Shown here: one piece after another, positions 1,134 to 10,391 of the stretch
Layout: the number at the start of each line of letters is the position of its first letter
How positions within the stretch are numbered: position 1 is the stretch's first letter
NCBI GenBank assembly: GCA_029256485.1
Contig: JAQSXU010000122.1
Span: 1-10,391 of the forward strand
Reading direction: 5' to 3'
Origin: Clostridiaceae bacterium
Lineage (GTDB): Bacteria > Bacillota_A > Clostridia > Clostridiales > Clostridiaceae
Length of the DNA: 10,391 bases
Program-made: the position numbers and the translations under genes
Notes under the pieces: generated by a model
Told to the model about the DNA's origin: nothing
What the model saw: only the letters and a program-made list of their open reading frames with translations
The model's database searches: none

Positions 1134-2126
1134 ATGTCATATTTAATTAAACCATTAAATAATCAAAAGTTATACCTAAAAAATAGATTGGTTATGCCGC
1201 CTATGGCTACATCAAAGTCCCAATCTGATGGGAAGGTAAGCAGAGATATATTAAATTATTATGATGAAAAATCCAAGGGAGGATATATATCACTTATTAT
1301 TATAGAACACAGCTTTATAGCACAGCAGGGCAAGGCTGACGGAAGACAGATGTCTTCAGCTGAGGATGGTGTGGTGGAAAATTTAAAGAAATTAGCTGAA
1401 GTTATTCATGAAAATGATTCCAAAGCTGTAATGCAGATTAATCATGCTGGAAGCGCAGCAAGCAAAGATATTACAGGTTATGAACCTGTGGGACCTTCAG
1501 CAGTAAAAAATCCACGGAAGGGCAATATTCCAAAAGAACTTACTAAAGATGAAATTAAAGATATAATTAACGCTTTCAGAGCAGCTGCCCTTCGCGTAAA
1601 AGAAGCAGGCTTTGATGGCGTAGAAATACATTCTGCCCATGGATATCTTTTGAACCAGTTTTTTTCACCATTGACTAATAAGAGAACTGATGAATACGGC
1701 GGGGATGTTATGGAAAGAATTAAGATTCATTTAGAGGTTATAAAGGCTGTACGCCAAGCAGTTGGCAGTGAGTTCCCAGTACTTTTGCGTTTAGGTGCAT
1801 CTGATTATATGGAGGGTGGAAGCACTATTGAACACAGCAAAATTGCAGCTGTTGAATTTGAAAAGGCAGGAGTTGATATTTTAGATATTTCCGGTGGATT
1901 CTGCGGATATGTTTTACCGAGTGCTACAGAGCAAGGATATTTTTCATCCCTTACCGAACAAATAAAAAAAGTTGTATCTATACCTGTTATTTTAACTGGG
2001 GGCATTACTCAGGCAAAGGCTGCTGAACAACTGCTTTCTGAAGGAAAAGCAGATCTTATTGGTGTAGGAAGGGCAATATACAAAGATTCTTCCTGGGCAA
2101 AGAAAGCTATTGAGAGTGTTAAGTAA
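1134..2126 (+). CDS. Old Yellow Enzyme-family NAD(P)H:flavin oxidoreductase (ene-reductase type)
   Basis: This 330-residue single-domain TIM barrel binds FMN and most likely reduces activated C=C bonds (enones, enals, maleimides, nitro compounds) with NAD(P)H. The family signature HSAHGYLLNQFFSP is at 166-179, followed by NKRTDEYGG at 182-190. His166, His169 and Tyr171 match the substrate-binding histidine pair and proton-donor tyrosine of YqjM-type enzymes. FMN phosphate-binding loops are TGGI (288-291) and GVGR (310-313); Gln101 and Arg219 are at flavin-contact positions. The length fits the short YqjM-like class, with no C-terminal Fe-S/NADH-oxidase half as in 2,4-dienoyl-CoA or 2-enoate reductases. 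The N-terminal motif MPPMATSKS (21-29) has Ala25 where YqjM has its redox-modulating Cys26. AGGAGGG precedes the ATG by 7 nt. The stop codon abuts the ATG of the response regulator, so the two are surely cotranscribed. The physiological substrate is unknown. Confidence 0.9.
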   Translation: MSYLIKPLNNQKLYLKNRLVMPPMATSKSQSDGKVSRDILNYYDEKSKGGYISLIIIEHSFIAQQGKADGRQMSSAEDGVVENLKKLAEVIHENDSKAVMQINHAGSAASKDITGYEPVGPSAVKNPRKGNIPKELTKDEIKDIINAFRAAALRVKEAGFDGVEIHSAHGYLLNQFFSPLTNKRTDEYGGDVMERIKIHLEVIKAVRQAVGSEFPVLLRLGASDYMEGGSTIEHSKIAAVEFEKAGVDILDISGGFCGYVLPSATEQGYFSSLTEQIKKVVSIPVILTGGITQAKAAEQLLSEGKADLIGVGRAIYKDSSWAKKAIESVK

Positions 2127-2813
2127 ATGGAGGAATATAGTATACTTATTATAGAAGATGAAAAACAAATGGCTATGTTTATTGAAATGGAGCTTAGTCA
2201 TGAAGGTTACAAGGTTCATGTGGAGAATAATGGTGTTGATGGATTAAGGGAAATAGAGAATGGCGGCTATAACCTAATACTTCTTGACATAATGTTACCA
2301 GGAATAGATGGTATGGAAATTTGCAGGAGGGTAAGAAAGTTCTCAGAAATACCAATAATTATGCTTACCGCAAAAGGAGAAATAACAGATAAGGTAAAGG
2401 GATTAGATATGGGGGCAGATGATTATCTAACAAAGCCTTTTGCAATTGAAGAACTATTAGCCAGAATACGTGTTATTAAAAGAAAAACCACTACAGAAAA
2501 AAATAGTAATGAACTTAAAGTGTATGATCTAATAATGAATAGGGTAAGCCACCAGGTAAAAAGAGCAAATAATATAATTGAACTAACAAAAAAAGAATAT
2601 GATCTTCTGGAAATTCTTTTAATTAATAAAAATGTAGTACTTACAAGGGAACAATTAATCGAAGCTGTTTGGGGCTATGACTATATTGGAGATACTAATG
2701 TTGTAGATGTATTCATAAGATATATACGCAGTAAAATTGATGATGGTTTTGAAAATAAAATAGTAACCACAGTAAGAGGAGTTGGATATGTAATAAAGGG
2801 TGATGCACTATGA
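2127..2813 (+). CDS. OmpR/PhoB-family response regulator
   Basis: This 228-residue DNA-binding regulator is phosphorylated by the kinase encoded next to it. The receiver domain (about 4-118) shows the acidic pocket Glu10-Asp11, the phospho-acceptor Asp54 in LLDIMLPG, the switch Thr81 and Lys103 in LTKPF. A winged-helix effector domain (about 128-226) has the recognition helix NVVDVFIRYIRSKI (191-204) and the wing motif TTVRGVGYV (214-222). All key residues are intact. The ATG directly follows the TAA of the oxidoreductase gene (TAAATG) and no good ribosome binding site precedes it, so translation is probably coupled to termination of the upstream gene. Oddly, the GGAGG at 2129-2133 lies just after the start codon. 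The start is supported by the normal N-terminus (SILIIEDE begins at residue 5). Likely targets are its own operon and the exporter genes downstream; this is inference from position. Confidence 0.95.
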   Translation: MEEYSILIIEDEKQMAMFIEMELSHEGYKVHVENNGVDGLREIENGGYNLILLDIMLPGIDGMEICRRVRKFSEIPIIMLTAKGEITDKVKGLDMGADDYLTKPFAIEELLARIRVIKRKTTTEKNSNELKVYDLIMNRVSHQVKRANNIIELTKKEYDLLEILLINKNVVLTREQLIEAVWGYDYIGDTNVVDVFIRYIRSKIDDGFENKIVTTVRGVGYVIKGDAL

Positions 2814-4189
2814 AGTTAAAGATTATTAAAAGTGCTAAAATTTCAGTTAAATTAACTATGATTTATGCTTTTATGTTTTCGCTTGTACTACTTTTATTAA
2901 GTGCATCTATCTTATATGGAATTAAATATTATTTAAATATAACTGCAGCGAAACAAGTAGAAGATGTCAAAGCTATGATATTAAATCAAAATACATCAGT
3001 AAATGAATCTGCTGACTTATCCAAGAGGGACATATTATTAGATTTTCCAACTAAAGAAGGAATGTTTATCAGGATATATGATAAAAATGGTATAATCATT
3101 AATTCATCAGATAATTTTAATTATAAAATTAATATCAGTGAACCGTATAATAAAGTAATCCATATAGAGGATGAAGGAAAACATATAACATATGTTAATG
3201 TGAAAGCTTCCAACATAAAATATGGTACCGCATATATTCAAATAGTTAAGGATATGAACAGAGAATATACTTTTTTAAAGATATTATTTGCATTTATGGC
3301 TGTGGGTGACTTAATAGGCATTATAGCCTCAATTATATTTGGATATTTAGTAAGTAAACGAATGCTGATGCCCATTGATTACATTACAAAAACTGCAGAA
3401 AATATAGGCGCAAAGAACTTAAAAGAGAGAATAGATATAAAAGGACCGGATGATGAGCTTAAAAGGCTGGCAGATACTTTTAATAAGATGATAGACAGAT
3501 TACAAGGAGCTTTTGACAAACAGACTCAGTTTGTGTCAGATGCCTCCCATGAGCTAAGAACCCCTATAGCTGTCATTCAAGGATATGCAAATTTATTAGA
3601 TAGATGGGGAAAAGATGATAGGGATGCTTTAGAAAAATCAATTTATGCTATTAAATTAGAAACTAATAACATGGCTAGCTTAGTTGAAAAATTATTGTTT
3701 CTTGCTAAAGGTGACAGCGGTACTAAAAGGATAGAAAAAAAGGAATTTTATTTAAATCAATTAGTAGATGAAGTTGTGGAAGAAAGTAAGCTTATAGCCG
3801 AAAATCATTTTATTTCAAATAGCAGTAATGATACTGTAAAGATTTTTGCTGATTATGAAATGATTAAGCAGATGCTGAGAATTTTCATTGATAATAGTAT
3901 GAAATTTACAAATGAGGGAGGAAATATAGATATAAGTTCTATAGCTATTGATAACTCCGTAAAAATAACCATTAGTGATACAGGTATGGGAATACCGAAA
4001 AATGAAATACAAAATATATTTAACAGATTTTATACAGTAGACAAGTCAAGATCAAAGGAGAAAACTGGAACTGGGTTAGGATTGTCTATTGCAAAGTGGA
4101 TTGCTGATATCCATGAAGGAACTATAGGTGTAGAAAGTGAAGATGAAAAGGGAACAAGAATCACTGTTACTTTAAAGAAGTTAAAATAA
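2810..4189 (+). CDS. Membrane sensor histidine kinase, partner of the upstream regulator
   Basis: This 459-residue HPK1-type kinase has a membrane segment at about 15-40, an extracytoplasmic sensor region of roughly 115 residues (41-155), a second membrane segment at 156-182 and a HAMP linker (about 180-235). The dimerisation/phospho-acceptor helix carries FVSDASHELRTP with His247. The ATPase domain shows the N box (FIDNSMKFTNEGG, Asn362), G1 box DTGMGI (390-395), F box FNRFY and G2 box GTGLGLSIAKW. The sensor contains FIRIYDKNGIIINSS (86-100), a pattern common in PAS/Cache-like periplasmic sensors. Its ATG overlaps the regulator stop codon by 4 bp (ATGA), which indicates translational coupling. 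No ligand can be deduced; the neighbouring ene-reductase and exporter suggest a membrane-active or electrophilic compound, but that is a guess. Confidence 0.95.
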   Translation: MKLKIIKSAKISVKLTMIYAFMFSLVLLLLSASILYGIKYYLNITAAKQVEDVKAMILNQNTSVNESADLSKRDILLDFPTKEGMFIRIYDKNGIIINSSDNFNYKINISEPYNKVIHIEDEGKHITYVNVKASNIKYGTAYIQIVKDMNREYTFLKILFAFMAVGDLIGIIASIIFGYLVSKRMLMPIDYITKTAENIGAKNLKERIDIKGPDDELKRLADTFNKMIDRLQGAFDKQTQFVSDASHELRTPIAVIQGYANLLDRWGKDDRDALEKSIYAIKLETNNMASLVEKLLFLAKGDSGTKRIEKKEFYLNQLVDEVVEESKLIAENHFISNSSNDTVKIFADYEMIKQMLRIFIDNSMKFTNEGGNIDISSIAIDNSVKITISDTGMGIPKNEIQNIFNRFYTVDKSRSKEKTGTGLGLSIAKWIADIHEGTIGVESEDEKGTRITVTLKKLK

Positions 4190-4222
4190 ATGATTATTAT
4201 GACTTGGCTTTGTTTTAAAACA

Positions 4223-4252
4223 TTGGATTTATGTGGTGGAATTACTTATAAT
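4223..4252 (+). promoter_or_regulatory. Candidate sigma-A-type promoter of the exporter operon
   Basis: TTGGAT (4223-4228) and TATAAT (4247-4252) are separated by 18 bp, which predicts a transcript start near 4259. The region lies between the kinase stop (4189) and the exporter lipoprotein start (4317). No hairpin terminator is visible after the kinase gene, so readthrough from the two-component operon is also possible. Confidence 0.5.
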
Positions 4253-4260
4253 AATTGTAA
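4246..4260. promoter_or_regulatory. Near-consensus PerR/Fur-family operator overlapping the exporter -10 box
   Basis: TTATAATAATTGTAA matches the PerR box TTATAATnATTATAA at 13 of 14 fixed positions (G4257 in place of A). Flanking bases extend the symmetry to a 21-bp palindrome at 4243-4263, with outer arms TACTTA and TAAGTA. It covers the TATAAT of the proposed promoter, the position expected for a repressor. PerR is the peroxide-sensing repressor of Firmicutes. The match to a Fur box is weaker (11 of 14). An unrelated regulator could also use this palindrome. Confidence 0.45.
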
Positions 4261-4316
4261 GTAGGTTAAAAAAGGAAAAGTAATTAATAATTTATATTAT
4301 AAGGGGTGTAACATAA

Positions 4317-5057
4317 GTGAAAAGATTTTCTATTTTATTTTTTTCATTAAGTTTAATATTAATTTTAAATGGATGCTCCAAGGTAAGCAAAGAAAAAAAT
4401 ACATATACTGGTACCATTGAATGTGAAAGTTTTTACATAACCAGCGATATCAGTGGAAAAGTTTTAAGCATTTCTGCTGTACAGGGCGCAAGCTTAAAAA
4501 AGGATGACAAAATTGCAGACATTGACACAAGTATGTATAAGTTTCAAAAACAACAAGCAGAGGGTGCACTTTTATCAGCTAATGCAAAATATGATAGTAT
4601 ACCTGAAGGATCAGATGATAACATAAAAAAACAGGCACAGGGAGCAGTAATACAGGCTAAGGCTGCGGTTGATATTGCAAATCTTCAAATATCAAAGGGA
4701 ATCATTACTAATTCAAAGGAAGGTACTGTAACAGATGTTTTTGTACATGAAGGAGAGCTAGTACAGCCAGGTACAAATATATTAAAAGTTATGGATACAG
4801 AAAATAAATATGTAAAGATTTATTTAGAAGAGACTAATAGGGATAAAGTAAAATTAAATGATAGTTTAAATATTTATTATAATGATAAATCAATTGGACA
4901 GGGAAAAATAACTTATATTTCCCCTCAGTCAGAATTCACTCCTAAAAATACTCAGACTAAGGATGAAAAAGAAAACACGGTTTTTGAAGTTAAGGTTAAA
5001 CTGTCAGGGGATAGCAAACTGTCTCCAGGTACTTTAGTTGATGTTGAAATAAAATAA
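4317..5057 (+). CDS. HlyD/YbhG-like periplasmic-adaptor lipoprotein of an ABC exporter
   Basis: This 246-residue protein begins with a lipoprotein signal peptide: MKR, a hydrophobic stretch, then the lipobox LNGC with Cys20 as the lipid-modified residue. It is probably tethered to the outer face of the membrane. Residues 31-72 (GTIECESFYITSDISGKV...GASLKKDDKIADID) form the first half of a biotinyl-lipoyl-like barrel. A short helical hairpin (about 74-125) is rich in Ala, Gln and Lys. The second barrel half follows at 132-160 (SKEGTVTDVFVHEGELVQPG), then a beta-barrel domain to the end. This is the layout of membrane-fusion proteins that serve ABC or MFS pumps, at the short end of the family. 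It starts at a GTG codon with AAGGGG about 10 nt upstream. It is 33 bp from the ATPase gene and forms an operon with it. The order adaptor-ATPase-permease resembles ybhG-ybhF-ybhS of enteric bacteria. Confidence 0.87.
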   Translation: MKRFSILFFSLSLILILNGCSKVSKEKNTYTGTIECESFYITSDISGKVLSISAVQGASLKKDDKIADIDTSMYKFQKQQAEGALLSANAKYDSIPEGSDDNIKKQAQGAVIQAKAAVDIANLQISKGIITNSKEGTVTDVFVHEGELVQPGTNILKVMDTENKYVKIYLEETNRDKVKLNDSLNIYYNDKSIGQGKITYISPQSEFTPKNTQTKDEKENTVFEVKVKLSGDSKLSPGTLVDVEIK

Positions 5058-5090
5058 TTCATTACTAATGTATAAGAAAAGGAGAAACAT

Positions 5091-5870
5091 ATGAATGCCA
5101 TTGAAATAAATAACCTAACCAAAAAATTTGGGGATTTTACTGCAGTAGATAATATTAGTTTCTGTGTGCCAAAGGGTAAAATATATGGTTTTTTAGGCCC
5201 CAATGGATCAGGAAAATCAACTACCATTAGAATGTTATGCGGGGTGCTTAAGCCAACATCAGGAAATGCTGTGGTACTTGGATATGATACTGAAAAGCAT
5301 AGGGACAAAGTAAAAGCAAAAATTGGATATATGTCTCAAAGGTTCAGCCTCTATGAAGATTTAACAGTAGATGAAAATTTGAATTTTTATGCAGGCATAT
5401 ATGGACTTACAAATGCAGAGAGAGATGAAAGAAAGAAATACATCATAAGTATGGCGGGTCTTAAAGGCAGAGAAAATAATATTACTGCAAATCTATCAGG
5501 AGGATGGAAGCAAAGGCTTGCCCTTGGTTGTGCCCTTATTCATAATCCTGAAATACTGGTGCTGGATGAGCCAACTGCCGGGGTTGATCCAGTTTCTAGA
5601 AGAATGTTCTGGGAAATGATATATATACTGGCTTCTGAGGGTATAACTATTTTAGTAACCACACATTATATGGACGAAGCTGAAAGCTGCGACATTGTTG
5701 CATTCATTTTTAATAGTAAGCTTATGACCATAGGAACCCCAAAAGAACTTATTTTAAAAGAGAATGTAAATAATCTTGAAGATGTGTTTATAAAATATGT
5801 TGAAAAAAGTACAAATGAAAAAGTAGAAAATTCCTTTGATGAACTGCGAAAAATAATTAAAAGGGGGTAA
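5091..5870 (+). CDS. ABC transporter ATPase, YbhF/CcmA-type drug-export subfamily
   Basis: This 259-residue cytoplasmic ATPase energises the exporter formed with the adjacent permease. Walker A is GPNGSGKST (36-44), the Q-loop glutamine is Gln83 (MSQRFSLYEDLTV), the signature is LSGGWKQR (135-142), Walker B is ILVLDE ending in catalytic Glu160, the D-loop is GVDP (164-167) and the switch His is His192 (TTHYMDEAE). All catalytic elements are intact. LSGGWKQRLALGCALIHNP and PTAGVDPVSRRMFW are typical of the ABC-2 exporter ATPases related to YbhF and DrrA. A good AAGGAG ribosome binding site precedes the ATG. The permease gene follows after only 5 bp, so the two proteins are made together. The domain is single, so two copies are expected per transporter. 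Confidence 0.94.
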   Translation: MNAIEINNLTKKFGDFTAVDNISFCVPKGKIYGFLGPNGSGKSTTIRMLCGVLKPTSGNAVVLGYDTEKHRDKVKAKIGYMSQRFSLYEDLTVDENLNFYAGIYGLTNAERDERKKYIISMAGLKGRENNITANLSGGWKQRLALGCALIHNPEILVLDEPTAGVDPVSRRMFWEMIYILASEGITILVTTHYMDEAESCDIVAFIFNSKLMTIGTPKELILKENVNNLEDVFIKYVEKSTNEKVENSFDELRKIIKRG

Positions 5871-5875
5871 TTTTA

Positions 5876-7012
5876 ATGAACTTTCAAAGATTTATCTCCA
5901 TAGTGAAAAAAGAATTTATTCAACTAAAGCGAGATAGAGCCAGCTTTGGCATAGCTCTAATGATGCCGATTATGATGATATTTTTATTTGGATATGCTGT
6001 AAATACACAATTAGAAAATATATCTATGGGAGTATTGGATCAAAGTAATACCACTGAAAGCAGAGAACTTATAAAAAGCTTTGAAAATACGGGATATTTT
6101 AATATGACTGAAAAGCAATTAAGTTTAAGCAGTATAGAAGAAAAAATTGATAAAGGTGAAATCCATTCTGCTTTAATTATTCCACCGGACTATTCAAGGT
6201 TACTTTTGCAAAAGGAAAATCCAAAGGTTCAATTGATTATTGATGGATCAGACCCTACAACGGCTAGGACCGCATTTAGCAGCGGAGTACTTGCAGGAGA
6301 AAGCTATGGAATGAAGAAAATTTCTCAAATCAATGATAAATTTTATTTTAAACCTAATATAGGAGGTTTGTCAGTTAATACAAAGGTATTGTATAATCCA
6401 GATTTGAGAAATCAAAATTACACAATACCAGGACTAATTGGTTTAATAATGCAAAATATTACTGTACTTTTAACAGCTTTTGCATTGGTTAGAGAAAGAG
6501 AGAGAGGAACAATAGAACAGCTCACAGTATCACCATTGAAATCATCCGAAATAATACTGGGAAAGCTTGTTCCATACATTCTCATAGGATTTTTTGATTT
6601 TATATTTTCCCTAGCTTTAGGATTATTGTGGTTTAATGTGCCTATAAAAGGCAGCCTGCCTCTGTTGTTATTTCTGGGACTGGGCTTTGTTATTTGTGCC
6701 CTGGCAATAGGTATTTTGATATCGACAATTTCCAGAACTCAGCTGCAGGCTATGCAGCTAAGCGTTTTAATAATACTGCCAAGTGTTTTATTGTCAGGTT
6801 TTGTTTTCCCAAGGGAAGCAATGCCTAAAATAATTCAATTGTTAGGCAGCCTGCTCCCATTAACATATTTTTTAAACATTTTAAGAGGAATAATAACCAA
6901 GGGCGTGGGAATGCAGTATCTGTACAAGGATGTAGTTCTGCTGTTTTCACTGGGAACCATGCTTCTGATTATAAGTATTCTAAGGTATCGAATGAAGCCA
7001 TATAACAGCTAA
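5876..7012 (+). CDS. ABC-2 type permease, YbhS/YbhR-like
   Basis: This 378-residue protein has the standard ABC-2 exporter layout. A short cytoplasmic N-terminal helix (KKEFIQLKRDRAS) precedes TM1 at about 24-42, then comes a large extracytoplasmic domain (about 43-180), followed by five membrane segments between 185 and 370. Family hallmarks are VRERERGTIEQLTVSPL (205-221), LSGFVFPREAMP (306-317) and TYFLNILRGIITKG (330-343). The length matches YbhS/YbhR. Enteric systems carry two permease genes, whereas only one is present here, so a homodimer is likely. AAGGGGG overlapping the ATPase stop serves as ribosome binding site. The gene ends 17 bp from the stop of the convergent flavoprotein gene, with no recognisable terminator hairpin. 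Substrates of related systems include cationic drugs, dyes and cholate-like compounds; the substrate here cannot be predicted. Confidence 0.92.
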   Translation: MNFQRFISIVKKEFIQLKRDRASFGIALMMPIMMIFLFGYAVNTQLENISMGVLDQSNTTESRELIKSFENTGYFNMTEKQLSLSSIEEKIDKGEIHSALIIPPDYSRLLLQKENPKVQLIIDGSDPTTARTAFSSGVLAGESYGMKKISQINDKFYFKPNIGGLSVNTKVLYNPDLRNQNYTIPGLIGLIMQNITVLLTAFALVRERERGTIEQLTVSPLKSSEIILGKLVPYILIGFFDFIFSLALGLLWFNVPIKGSLPLLLFLGLGFVICALAIGILISTISRTQLQAMQLSVLIILPSVLLSGFVFPREAMPKIIQLLGSLLPLTYFLNILRGIITKGVGMQYLYKDVVLLFSLGTMLLIISILRYRMKPYNS

Positions 7013-7029: not shown

Positions 7030-7644
7030 CTATTTTTTTAATTGTGTAATCACATGTGCCATATTCTGTGCTAAGTGTTTCATTATTATTAAACCTTCTT
7101 CATCATTTTCTGCATCTAATTTACCGCTTGTACCAGCTACTCCCACATTCCAGTAATGAGAGCCGGTAACGATAAAATCATTAACAGTCATCCAAAGCAA
7201 TAGCTGTGCAAAGGCAAAATTTTGTCCGGCTCTTCTTGCCACTGTAATTGGTGCGGCCACTTTACCCGAAAAAGCTGTGCCGTTCCATTGATAAGAATCA
7301 GATTCATTTTTCATATTGTTTGCAATCCATCGTCCTGTAAAACCGGCTCTGTCAAGGAGCCCTTTTAATTTTGCAGTTATAGAGGAATTATAAACTGGTG
7401 ATCCAATAAGTATTCCATCTGAATCAAGCATTTTTTGAAATATCTCCTGAAAATCATCTTCTATAATGCAGTGCTTTGCTTTTACACATCCATAGCAGCC
7501 AGTACATTCCTCAATTTTTTTATCACGTAAAGTGATAAGTTCGGTTTCAAAACCCATATTTTTCAGTTCTTTTAAAGTATAATTAATATAAGTTTTAGTA
7601 TTACTCTCTTCTCTGGGACTTCCGCAAATTCCAATTACCTTCAT
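7030..7644 (-). CDS. Iron-sulfur flavoprotein (Isf)-like NADPH-dependent FMN reductase family protein
   Basis: This flavodoxin-fold protein of 204 residues starts MKVIGICGSPREESNTKT, where GSPREESNT (8-16) is the FMN phosphate loop. GSPVYNSSITAKLKGLLDR (81-99) is the second flavin-contact loop. Between them sits the compact cysteine cluster C47-x2-C50-x2-C53-x5-C59 (CTGCYGCVKAKHC). This fits the CX2CX2CX4-7C motif that binds a [4Fe-4S] cluster in archaeal and clostridial iron-sulfur flavoproteins. Such proteins shuttle electrons between ferredoxin-like carriers and acceptors such as oxygen or peroxide. An upstream TTG at 7659 could extend the frame by five codons, but those codons contain the GGAGG (7653-7657) that sits 8 nt before ATG 7644, so the ATG is preferred. 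The gene lies 25 bp downstream of the CoA-transferase gene and is probably cotranscribed from the sigma-54 promoter. Its physiological partner is unknown. Confidence 0.88.
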   Translation of the reverse strand: MKVIGICGSPREESNTKTYINYTLKELKNMGFETELITLRDKKIEECTGCYGCVKAKHCIIEDDFQEIFQKMLDSDGILIGSPVYNSSITAKLKGLLDRAGFTGRWIANNMKNESDSYQWNGTAFSGKVAAPITVARRAGQNFAFAQLLLWMTVNDFIVTGSHYWNVGVAGTSGKLDAENDEEGLIIMKHLAQNMAHVITQLKK

Positions 7645-7669
7645 TATTATTACCTCCAATATATTTAAC

Positions 7670-8995
7670 TTACCATATCATATTTTTTTTAGCTTCAAAG
7701 CGAAGTTCATCTCTAAAATCAGGGTGTGCAATATTTATAAGTTTTTCCAACCTTTCTTTAACTGATCTTCCTCTAAGCCATGCTGTACCATATTCTGTTA
7801 CTACATAATCTACATCGTTTCTGGAAAGAGAAATAATTGTACCTTCCTTTAGCATTGGAGAAATTTTTGATATAGTTTTTATCGTGCCGTCAACATTTTT
7901 GGATGATGCAGTGGAGTGAAGCGCAATTATAGATTTACCACCTTCGGACATCTGAGCACCAATGGCTGTCTCAGCTTGTCCACCTGTACCTGAATACTGC
8001 CAGTGTCCAATTGATTCAGAAGCACACTGGCCTGTAAGATCAACCTCTAAAGATGTATTTATTGATACCATTTTATAATTCTGGCCAACTACATAGGGAT
8101 CATTTGCCCAAGATGCAGCTTTAAATATAAAGGAGGGATTATCATCAATAAAGTCATAAAGCTTTTTAGAGCCAAAAGCAAAACAACCAACGGCCTTACC
8201 TTTATATAAAGATTTCATGGAGTTATCCAAGGCACCGCATTCTATTAAGTCTACCATACTTTCAGTAAACATTTCTGTATGAATTCCCAGATGCTTTTTA
8301 TTTCTTAATTCATGAGCTACAGCGTTTGGTATTTTACCTATACCAAGCTGGATTGTTGAACCATCCTCCACTAACTCTGCAATATTTTCTCCTATTTTTT
8401 TATCCACTTCAGAATATGCTGCCGCTGGTATAGCTGGAGCATCATAATTAACTTCTACAATGGCATCTATTTCGCTTATATGTACCATTGTATCTCCAAA
8501 GGTTCTAGGCATATTTGGATTAACTTCTACAATAACCAGTGCTCCCATGTCAATTAATTCTCTTTCATAAACTGAGGAAAGACTAAGACTTAAATAACCA
8601 TGAGTGTCCATAGGAGAACATGTAGCTAATACAACTAATCTCCTTCCATTTGCAGCAAAAAGTCTTTTAGTTAATGCAGTGTGAGCATGCTGAGGAACTA
8701 ATGTTATATTACCATTCATATGAGAGTTTCTAAGTGGAGCTGTATAGAACCAGCCAGTTACATATATAGCATCCTTGTATGAGGGATTTTTAATAAACTC
8801 ATAGTTAGCAATAGGAAAACAATTTGTAAGTTCACAACCGCGTACACCATTATCTTTAATAGTATGAATATTTTTTAGTATTTCAATAGGTTCGCTTCCA
8901 GCCTGAGCTGTAAATATAAAATCATTTGATTTTATTAGACTAAGTGCCTCTCTTACTGTTTTTACTTTACTTTTGTAAATGTTTTCGTAATTCAT
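7670..8995 (-). CDS. Acetyl-CoA hydrolase/transferase family CoA-transferase (4-hydroxybutyrate/butyryl-CoA type)
   Basis: This 441-residue family-I CoA-transferase moves CoA between a carboxylic acid and an acyl-CoA through a glutamyl-CoA thioester. The catalytic Glu is most likely Glu241 in LGIHTEMFTE, equivalent to Glu238 of 4-hydroxybutyrate CoA-transferase. Other family motifs are LGIGKIPNAV (217-226), FGSKKLYDF (274-282), the glycine-rich QYSGTGGQAE (333-342) and EYGTAWLRGRS (401-411). Length and motifs match the Cat2/AbfT and butyryl-CoA:acetate CoA-transferase group. The exact acid (4-hydroxybutyrate, butyrate, crotonate or another short acid) cannot be told from sequence by eye. GGAGG lies about 7 nt before the ATG (8995-8993). 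Transcription is predicted to start near 9022 from the sigma-54 promoter at 9033-9049, under control of the divergent activator. The iron-sulfur-flavoprotein-like gene follows in the same operon. Confidence 0.92.
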   Translation of the reverse strand: MNYENIYKSKVKTVREALSLIKSNDFIFTAQAGSEPIEILKNIHTIKDNGVRGCELTNCFPIANYEFIKNPSYKDAIYVTGWFYTAPLRNSHMNGNITLVPQHAHTALTKRLFAANGRRLVVLATCSPMDTHGYLSLSLSSVYERELIDMGALVIVEVNPNMPRTFGDTMVHISEIDAIVEVNYDAPAIPAAAYSEVDKKIGENIAELVEDGSTIQLGIGKIPNAVAHELRNKKHLGIHTEMFTESMVDLIECGALDNSMKSLYKGKAVGCFAFGSKKLYDFIDDNPSFIFKAASWANDPYVVGQNYKMVSINTSLEVDLTGQCASESIGHWQYSGTGGQAETAIGAQMSEGGKSIIALHSTASSKNVDGTIKTISKISPMLKEGTIISLSRNDVDYVVTEYGTAWLRGRSVKERLEKLINIAHPDFRDELRFEAKKNMIW

Positions 8996-9032
8996 AATAT
9001 TACCTCCAAAGATTATTTTTAAAATTACTTAA

Positions 9033-9049
9033 AGCAAATGCTGTGCCAA
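9033..9049 (-). promoter_or_regulatory. Sigma-54 (-24/-12) promoter for the CoA-transferase operon
   Basis: On the minus strand the sequence reads TTGGCACAGCATTTGCT. This matches the sigma-54 consensus TGGCAC-N5-TTGCW in full, with GG at 9047-9046 and GC at 9035-9034, exactly 12 bp apart. The predicted transcript starts near 9022, giving a leader of about 27 nt before the CoA-transferase ATG. Such promoters need an AAA+ activator, and one is encoded divergently. Confidence 0.88.
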
Positions 9050-9112
9050 TAAAAATTTGCTTTCAAACCTTGGAATTATGCTGATTTTATATTTGGCTGC
9101 TGAATGTAGATA

Positions 9113-9127
9113 GTAACAAAATGTTAT
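9113..9127. promoter_or_regulatory. Proximal enhancer (UAS) copy, GTAACA-AAA-TGTTAT
   Basis: This inverted repeat has one imperfect outer pair and matches the perfect copy at 9175-9189. Its centre (9120) is about 98 bp upstream of the predicted sigma-54 transcript start, a normal distance for an activator binding site. Confidence 0.65.
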
Positions 9128-9174
9128 TTATTATATGAAGATTTTAAGAATAACACTATTTATAGCCTTTATAG

Positions 9175-9189
9175 GTAACAATATGTTAC
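9175..9189. promoter_or_regulatory. Distal enhancer (UAS) copy, GTAACA-ATA-TGTTAC
   Basis: This is a perfect 6-bp-arm inverted repeat with a 3-bp spacer. Its centre (9182) is about 160 bp upstream of the sigma-54 start and 62 bp from the proximal copy. That is close to six helical turns, so both sites face the same side of the DNA. This spacing supports cooperative binding by the divergent sigma-54 activator. Confidence 0.68.
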
Positions 9190-9191
9190 TC

Positions 9192-9213
9192 TAATTATCA
9201 ATATTGATAATTA
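9192..9213. repeat. Perfect 22-bp palindrome over the activator promoter
   Basis: The left arm TAATTATCAAT (9192-9202) is the exact reverse complement of the right arm ATTGATAATTA (9203-9213), with no spacer. It covers the proposed -35 hexamer of the activator gene, which suggests an operator for a repressor, possibly autoregulatory. I do not recognise the owner; it differs from the GTAACA enhancer repeats just upstream. Confidence 0.6.
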
Positions 9214-9232
9214 TTACTGAATGGTATAATAT
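9204..9232 (+). promoter_or_regulatory. Candidate sigma-A-type promoter of the activator gene
   Basis: TTGATA (9204-9209) serves as -35, with TAATAT (9227-9232) at 17-bp spacing. A perfect TATAAT at 9225-9230 overlaps it at 15 bp. The transcript would start near 9238, about 23 nt before the GTG start codon. The -35 lies inside the right arm of the 22-bp palindrome. Confidence 0.5.
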
Positions 9233-9260
9233 TTTATTATGAAATAAGGAGGGTTGGAAA

Positions 9261-9662
9261 GTGATTAATAAAAAGAGTAAGCCAAGTTCAGAGGAAATTG
9301 CTGATATTATGAGATATATAACAAGCCTTATATTCAATCAGATACCAATTCCAATAAATTTTGTGGATGCAAATTGCAATGTTATTGTAATGAACCAAGC
9401 CTTTCTAAGTTATTTGGGATTGACTTTAAAAGATGTGGAAGGTAAACACTTAACAGAAATAGATCCAATGGTAAGACTGCCTATAGTATTAAAAACCGGA
9501 AAAGCGGAAATTGCGCAAAAACATTGTTTTAAGGATGGGAGAAAGGCAATTTGCCATAGAATACCGCTTTTTTATGACAATGAAATAATAGGCGGAGTAG
9601 GTATTATATTAATTGATGATTTGAATTATCTATATAACTTAAACAGAGAAAATAAAGCCTAA
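9261..9662 (+). CDS. PAS-domain N-terminal part of a sigma-54-dependent activator (frame broken)
   Basis: This 133-residue reading frame starts at GTG 9261, 7 nt after GGAGGG. A short helical lead (residues 1-24) precedes a PAS fold at about 25-120. The PAS pattern includes [22 protein letters not shown], a GKHLTEIDP turn and the closing strand [15 protein letters not shown] domains in this activator family sense small ligands or redox state. The frame then enters a linker ([11 protein letters not shown]) and meets TAA at 9660-9662, just where an AAA+ domain should follow. That domain is present immediately downstream in the +1 frame. This half is therefore best read as part of a split or frameshifted activator of about 450 residues, not as a free-standing PAS protein, although independent expression cannot be excluded. 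It is transcribed away from the CoA-transferase operon that it probably controls. Confidence 0.8.
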
Positions 9663-9675
9663 AACTGCAGCCGAT

Positions 9676-10391
9676 ATGTATAAGGCAAAATATAAGTTTG
9701 AAGACATATTTACTGTAAGTGACTGCGGAAAAAAGTGCATAGAAACTGCAAAAAATTATTCTAAAAATGACTTTTCAGTGCTGTTGACTGGTGAAAGCGG
9801 AGTTGGTAAGGAACTATTTGCTCACAGCATTCATAATGAAAGCAATAGAAAAGAGGGACCATTTATTAGCGTGAATTGTGCAGCCATACCTGAAAATTTA
9901 ATTGAAGCTGAGTTATTTGGCTATGAGGCAGGTGCTTTTACTGGAGCAAATAAAGATGGTAGAATAGGAAAGTTCGAGCTCGCTAATGGAGGTACTATTT
10001 TTTTAGATGAAATAGGGGATCTGCCGCTAAGTATGCAGGCAAAATTATTAAGAGTGCTTCAGGAAAATGAAATGGTGAGAATTGGTGGTAACCATATTAT
10101 CAGTTTAGATTTAAAGGTTATAGCTGCAACAAATTGCAATTTAGAAGAAAAAATAAAAGAAGGAAACTTTAGAGAGGACCTTTATTACAGGTTAAATGTA
10201 CTTAATCTTAATATTCCACCATTAAGGCAGCGTAAAGAAGATATACCTCTTCTTATTGATAATTTTATTACAAAGCTTTATCAGAAATGCGGGATATATA
10301 AGAAATTTTCTGATGAGTCAATTAATGTGCTGACTAATTATTATTGGCCAGGAAATATTAGAGAACTTAAAAATATTGTTGAACGTATTGC
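9676..10391 (+). CDS. Sigma-54-interaction AAA+ domain, continuation of the activator, truncated by window end
   Basis: The frame is open from 9643 and its first ATG is at 9676; it runs off the right edge after about 238 codons. Counting from that [13 protein letters not shown] is the usual entry to the domain, Walker A is GESGVGKE (39-46, at 9790), and the sigma-54 contact loop GAFTGA is at 9931-9948. Walker B is GGTIFLDEI, the arginine-finger region is [12 protein letters not shown], and the sensor region is [12 protein letters not shown] near the edge. All elements are intact, so the ATPase itself looks functional. The C-terminal DNA-binding HTH lies beyond the window. No ribosome binding site precedes ATG 9676, which argues against it being a normal separate gene. 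Removing one A from the AAAA run at 9649-9652 would join the two parts smoothly as [17 protein letters not shown]. Either the gene is mutated, the sequence has an error, or a +1 frameshift occurs. Confidence 0.85.

Follow-up and report, generated by a model that had tools for sequence, protein, structure and literature searches.

A predicted sigma-54 switch with paired GTAAC-N5-GTTAC sites upstream of a 4-hydroxybutyrate-type CoA-transferase operon in a Clostridiaceae bacterium

CoA-transferases are encoded in Escherichia coli by atoDA and presumably, to judge from their names, by cotX and cotY of the Clostridiales. Upstream of the E. coli short-chain fatty acid operon atoDAEB, the sigma-54 activator AtoC acts on palindromic sites (PMC3118216), an arrangement resembling the one described here. 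In Clostridium beijerinckii, AdhR and SigL act on adhA1 and adhA2, and this case was demonstrated by SigL binding assays together with site and gene mutation (PMC7017808). For the Clostridiales as an order, Nie et al. (2019; PMC6615313) described sigma-54 regulons in which PAS-AAA+-HTH activators lie mostly beside the target operon and often have several upstream sites, with TTGGCATN5TTGCT as the promoter consensus and with TGT-N10-12-ACA sites used by 15 of the 39 activator groups; operons containing cotX and cotY are among the targets. The terms "transferase", "hydroxybutyrate" and "homopropionicum" gave no match in the main text of that paper, and the literature retrieved as joining 4-hydroxybutyrate CoA-transferase, sigma-54 and Clostridium consisted only of work on iron in C. 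difficile.

The locus analysed here lies in a contig of a Clostridiaceae bacterium (GenBank accession number JAQSXU010000122.1), and the whole stretch of 10,391 nucleotides is referred to as the window. The window appears to make up the entire contig, the protein database listing its PAS fragment (P0001) from a single contig of 10391 bases. The segment 8996-9260 separates a CoA-transferase gene from a divergent activator gene, and the following features were assigned in and around it.

7030-7644, minus strand: flavoprotein of the NADPH-dependent FMN reductase type, second gene of the operon, 204 aa when started at ATG (PF03358, 6.4e-33)
7670-8995, minus strand: CoA-transferase of the 4-hydroxybutyrate CoA-transferase type, 441 aa (PF13336/PF02550)
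9002-9007, minus strand: ribosome-binding site GGAGGT of the CoA-transferase gene, read from the sequence
9033-9049, minus strand (read 9049 to 9033): predicted sigma-54 -24/-12 promoter TTGGCACAGCATTTGCT, 0 mismatches to TTGGCAYN5TTGCW
9113-9127, unstranded: promoter-proximal candidate activator site GTAACAAAATGTTAT, centre 9120, at about -98, 1 mismatch to GTAACN5GTTAC
9175-9189, unstranded: distal candidate activator site GTAACAATATGTTAC, centre 9182, at about -160, perfect match to GTAACN5GTTAC
9261-9662, plus strand: PAS part of the divergent activator (PF13426, 2.4e-06), stop at 9660-9662
9643-10391, plus strand, other frame: AAA+ sigma-54 activator part (PF00158, 6.7e-71), first ATG at 9676, GAFTGA at 9931-9948

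The switch is of the kind described for the Clostridiales, since a local PAS-type activator, multiple upstream sites and a -24/-12 promoter occur together at the window as in the regulons of Nie et al. (PMC6615313). The sites lie 71 and 133 bp from the promoter in the window, whereas distances of 100-250 bp prevail in that study, and the window sites depart from TGT-N11-ACA at 2 and 3 positions, lacking the outer T/A; this pattern is fitted fully by 7 of the 16 sites found in the window's activator family. AtoC differs in belonging to a two-component pair, AtoSC, as its response regulator, the sensor part in the window being a PAS domain, and both the AtoC site sequence and the CoA-transferase family differ from those of the window (PMC3118216). 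An AtoC-type response regulator was rejected, as the Pfam families listed for the window include PAS and no receiver domain. In the AdhR-SigL case, too, a clostridial activator has several sites upstream of a promoter of the -24/-12 type; its targets, however, are alcohol dehydrogenases, and it was tested by experiment (PMC7017808), whereas the window switch is predicted from sequence.

The best solved relative of the CoA-transferase was 3gk7, a 4-hydroxybutyrate CoA-transferase (1.2e-97). Both the AcetylCoA_hydro domains and the glutamate of GIHxEM are present, GIHTEM of the window protein being aligned with GIHSEM of 3gk7, and this conserved glutamate is taken by us to be the nucleophile. 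Assignment as a butyryl-CoA:acetate CoA-transferase was discarded on the basis of the score against the TIGR03948 equivalog, 282.1 bits versus a curated cut-off of 674.8. After a gap of 25 bases follows the flavoprotein gene, whose product carries a CX2CX2CX5C cysteine motif and whose PF03358 match was computed on the 209-aa frame 7030-7659. By eye, the genes at 2127-7012, facing the CoA-transferase operon, encode a response regulator, a histidine kinase, a membrane-fusion protein and an ABC exporter.

Among the 80 CoA-transferase matches listed, the closest was that of C. homopropionicum (68% identical). Strict promoters and the activator hallmark were looked for at all 80 loci, with gene maps drawn for four; 8 of the 80 listed carried the hallmark in the flanking sequence covered, thus sigma-54 control is not general for CoA-transferases of the 4-hydroxybutyrate type. 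Four Tissierellia CoA-transferase loci (L014, L015, L025 and L029, around 1300-3030) display a sigma-54 activator with one or two strict -24/-12 elements; the GTAAC motif is absent from the 320 bp upstream in all four at one mismatch, and the L014 activator falls outside the window's activator family in the tree.

The initial annotation had called 9033-9049 a full-consensus sigma-54 promoter, and this was borne out on the minus strand, the element having GG at -24, GC at -12, the fixed spacing and the TTGGCAY-N5-TTGCW context. Scanning the window at up to one mismatch gave a single further promoter-like match, 7196-7212, which is intragenic and has 1 mismatch (chance expectation 0.34). In total, the strict pattern YTGGCAYN5TTGCW was matched 197 times across 10 genomes of relatives, versus 4 times for the reversed pattern, so that a full match is a good indicator of a promoter and rarely arises there by chance. 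With the -12 base set at 9034, the transcript is predicted to start at about 9022, that is 27 nt ahead of the ATG at 8995. Sigma-54 itself (PF04552) was present in 16 of the 16 relatives searched.

The inverted repeats previously reported near -98 and -160 were confirmed, with 62 bp between their centres, while the form GTAACA-N3-TGTTAC given for them is better replaced by the wider GTAAC-N5-GTTAC. The motif was widened after viewing L001 and, chiefly, the A. bizertensis locus L002, in which the CoA-transferase gene is preceded by a full -24/-12 element and, farther upstream, by two perfect sites. At up to one mismatch to GTAACN5GTTAC the window contains exactly the two sites 9113-9127 and 9175-9189, the expected number being 0.14. 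Two or more sites were met in 1 of 200 whole-window shuffles, and shuffling of the 320 bp upstream region alone reached the observed site number in 0 of 20,000 cases at either cut-off. The same 15 bases as in GTAACAAAATGTTAT occur upstream of CtfAB in L116/L086.

The two repeats had also been described as phased enhancers about six turns apart. Their 62 bp spacing corresponds to 5.9 turns; the spacings in six relatives are 17, 18, 19, 19, 33, 34, 68 and 69 bp (including two-mismatch sites of L001, L003 and L119 and omitting one two-mismatch site of L116), and the sites with up to one mismatch give 18, 19, 33, 68 and 69 bp, none near six whole turns. Helical phasing as a conserved feature is ruled out by this variation. 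What recurs, in part, is the position of the promoter-proximal site rather than the spacing between sites: its centre is 69-71 bp ahead of the first base of the -24 element in the window, L002 and L116, and likewise in L003 by a two-mismatch site; the distance is 87 bp in L001. Upstream of the C. aestuarii CoA-transferase gene (L003:4820-4880), half-sites fall within one inverted repeat of about 58 bp by eye, which could be a terminator.

As to the activator, the PAS and AAA+ domains and the GAFTGA motif described earlier were found, but not as a single intact gene in this contig. The PAS and AAA+ parts are in different frames, with a break between 9643 and 9662, and the contig ends at 10391, ahead of any DNA-binding domain or helix-turn-helix. 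The closest relatives of the activator, P0028 and P0031 (81-87% identical), are single intact frames, and none of the PAS-query matches listed from a search of 206 genomes has an internal stop. The displaced frame may reflect an assembly error, or the activator may be split or inactive in this strain. Intact activators of L116 and L117 end in an HTH_8 domain, and a similar C-terminal helix is common to the ten intact relatives aligned, which agrees with a shared site.

The 206 genomes are those of the C. homopropionicum family, and the PAS-piece query matched in 67 of them at E<=1e-10, the best match being G101 (65% identical). Wider PAS searches in 225 genomes of the order, a set overlapping that of the family, and in 391 genomes sampled from the class added G218, G222 and G484 at E<=1e-24. 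Seventeen neighbourhoods were mapped, comprising the first 12 family matches, these three genomes, L002 and L003; gene names rest on Pfam for ten proteins and otherwise on similarity to those or to window genes, or on inspection by eye. The same type of CoA-transferase was found in 10 of the 17, and in 8 of those 10 a 3-oxoacyl-ACP-synthase-III-like gene was present (Pfam-checked in L117, by similarity in the others). The related locus of C. homopropionicum includes a sodium:solute symporter.

Different genes accompany the activator elsewhere. In G101 (L116), 1 of the 17, a two-subunit CoA-transferase identified by PF01144 and here assigned the name CtfAB is divergent to the activator; L124 likewise has CtfAB-like genes, and L127 a CtfB-like piece. 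Four of the 17, namely L118 (Pfam-checked), L119, L122 and L123, carry an M20 hydrolase together with a gene lacking any Pfam match, the M20 and neighbouring genes of the last three being 70-77% identical by similarity; other genes adjoin the activator in 2 of the 17 (L125 and L127). The G101 region L116:8154-9531 unites the best-PAS-match activator, the divergent CtfAB and three sites at the one-mismatch cut-off, including an exact copy of GTAACAAAATGTTAT. In G484 (L133) a flavoprotein 52% identical to that of the window, with a similar cysteine motif, is encoded downstream of the activator. The cluster at L133:5102-13270 further contains a ketoacyl-synthase-like protein, a CoA-transferase and a distant symporter relative, and also genes that by eye resemble those of a dehydratase and of a short-chain reductase; it may amount to a complete pathway.

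In the tree, the AAA+ piece of the window groups with P0031 and P0028 (100/100), inside an 18-row clade that holds the C. homopropionicum, CtfAB-linked and M20-linked activators. The activator type of L002 and L003 forms a separate clade of 9, hence the site is common to two related clades. Loci without a good site belong mostly to this second clade (L120, L121, L124, L125 and L126), with L122 and L133 in the first.

Recurrence of the site was assessed in the 320 bp upstream of sigma-54 promoters; for each locus a single promoter, adjoining either the activator or the CoA-transferase, was chosen by hand. L131 was left out as its upstream region runs off its contig. In 17 loci including the window, 16 sites with up to one mismatch were found, distributed over 10 loci (shuffle mean 0.12, maximum 1). 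When the loci that had shaped the motif (window, L001 and L002) were omitted, the 14 held-out loci still gave 10 sites in 7 loci (shuffle mean 0.08, maximum 2), the other 7 having none at this cut-off. The motif search in relatives suggested by the initial annotation was positive beside related activators and negative at other -24/-12 promoters, where GTAAC-N5-GTTAC was found at one mismatch in 0 of 29; these controls were drawn from other matches of the scan, many of them beside mutually homologous activators and 5 within tested loci. At up to two mismatches, 11 of the 14 held-out loci had a site (shuffle mean 1.5) versus 1 of the 29 other promoters (shuffle mean 3.5), L125, L126 and L133 remaining without one. 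A role of the motif as a general sigma-54 element was rejected on these control counts. In L126:13265-13420 (G124) the order is reversed, a strict -24/-12 element being followed downstream by a one-mismatch site.

A composite pattern of site, 45-75 bp and -24/-12 element, applied to the 206 family genomes, gave 1 match, upstream of CtfAB in G101, and 0 in the reversed control. It misses all other mapped activator loci of that family because their sites or promoters are mismatched or lie outside 45-75 bp. The perfect motif alone showed no enrichment in 10 genomes, with 20 sites versus 21 for the reversed control (summed), which gives no support for the motif outside the context of promoter and activator; a genome-wide regulon was rejected on the same counts. 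Recurrence beside activators together with the lack of genome-wide enrichment fits a local, one-operon switch. Of the local sigma-54 switch as first claimed, the tie between motif and activator family thus stands, and the intact activator and the phasing do not.

It is extremely improbable that the -24/-12 match arose by chance and that an ordinary sigma-70 promoter reads the gene. Three sigma-70-like pairs do occur upstream on the minus strand, at 9260-9231, 9023-8994 and 9022-8994, but their frequency matches that of shuffles (16 found versus 15.1 expected), the nearest two span the ribosome-binding site and end within the start codon, and the -24/-12 element recurs together with the activator sites. 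That the repeats are sites of another regulator, such as a nitrogen regulator of the GlnR/TnrA type, and not of the sigma-54 activator, is very unlikely, even though the motif has some resemblance to the GlnR/TnrA-type consensus TGTNANAWWWTNTNACA. Nine of the 16 sites fit it at up to one mismatch, 2 of these fully, and positions 7 (A) and 11 (T), fixed in the consensus, hold in 11 and 13 of the 16. The two window sites, in turn, deviate from it at 2 and 3 positions and another 5 sites at 2 to 4, while positions 6 and 12, free in the consensus, are constant in 14 and 15 of the 16, a constancy favoured by the one-mismatch selection itself. Moreover, the sites accompany the activator family, and none of the 29 other sigma-54 promoters has one at one mismatch; a literature query combining the consensus, GlnR and Clostridium gave no match, which says little.

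A genuinely split activator, with the PAS part made as a protein by itself and the AAA+-HTH part as another one starting at 9676, deserves somewhat more weight and is still improbable. The operon would then be off or, as with PspF, on without a signal. The frames are indeed separate as sequenced and an ATG lies directly ahead of the AAA+ domain; however, all family matches listed, as well as P0028 and P0031, are single-frame, no ribosome-binding site was seen by eye ahead of 9676, and the PAS piece comes from one contig only, which leaves room for an assembly error.

The reading favoured here is that a one-component PAS activator very probably exerts local control over the operon of the 4-hydroxybutyrate-type CoA-transferase and the flavoprotein, as judged from the promoter, sites, domains and recurrence beside related activators apparent in the sequences. 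The segment 8996-9260, lying between the divergent genes, would accordingly hold the control elements of a sigma-54-dependent operon for a CoA-transferase and an iron-sulfur-type flavoprotein. Sigma-54 RNA polymerase would wait at 9033-9049, and dimers of the PAS-AAA+-Fis activator, encoded by the divergent gene or an intact version of that gene, would bind GTAAC-N5-GTTAC at about -98 and -160. On sensing of a ligand by the PAS domain, the dimers would assemble into a hexamer, which would contact the promoter by looping and use ATP hydrolysis to open it, giving the predicted transcript.

As signal, the activator may sense a compound that the CoA-transferase activates, either a hydroxy or oxo acid of short chain length or a metabolite related to one. 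Growth of C. homopropionicum on 2-, 3- or 4-hydroxybutyrate has been reported (PMC4591306), and from this growth and its related locus we infer a short-chain hydroxy or oxo acid as both substrate of the CoA-transferase and signal of the activator, a proposal for which we hold the chances to be about equal either way. More tentatively, and rather doubtfully, one activator family with one type of site may have kept control of short-chain acid activation while the enzyme was exchanged, from the 4-hydroxybutyrate-type CoA-transferase here to CtfAB in G101 and to M20-hydrolase operons in four loci. If so, the PAS domain would read the acid or a CoA-derived metabolite, and the ligand would be predictable from the shared step.

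The switch is of an ordinary metabolic kind, its principle already known, and what is new is this instance. It provides a concrete site, GTAAC-N5-GTTAC, and a promoter for an activator family that often adjoins CoA-transferase genes in anaerobes, and it would help to predict when such anaerobes turn on the uptake and activation of short-chain acids.
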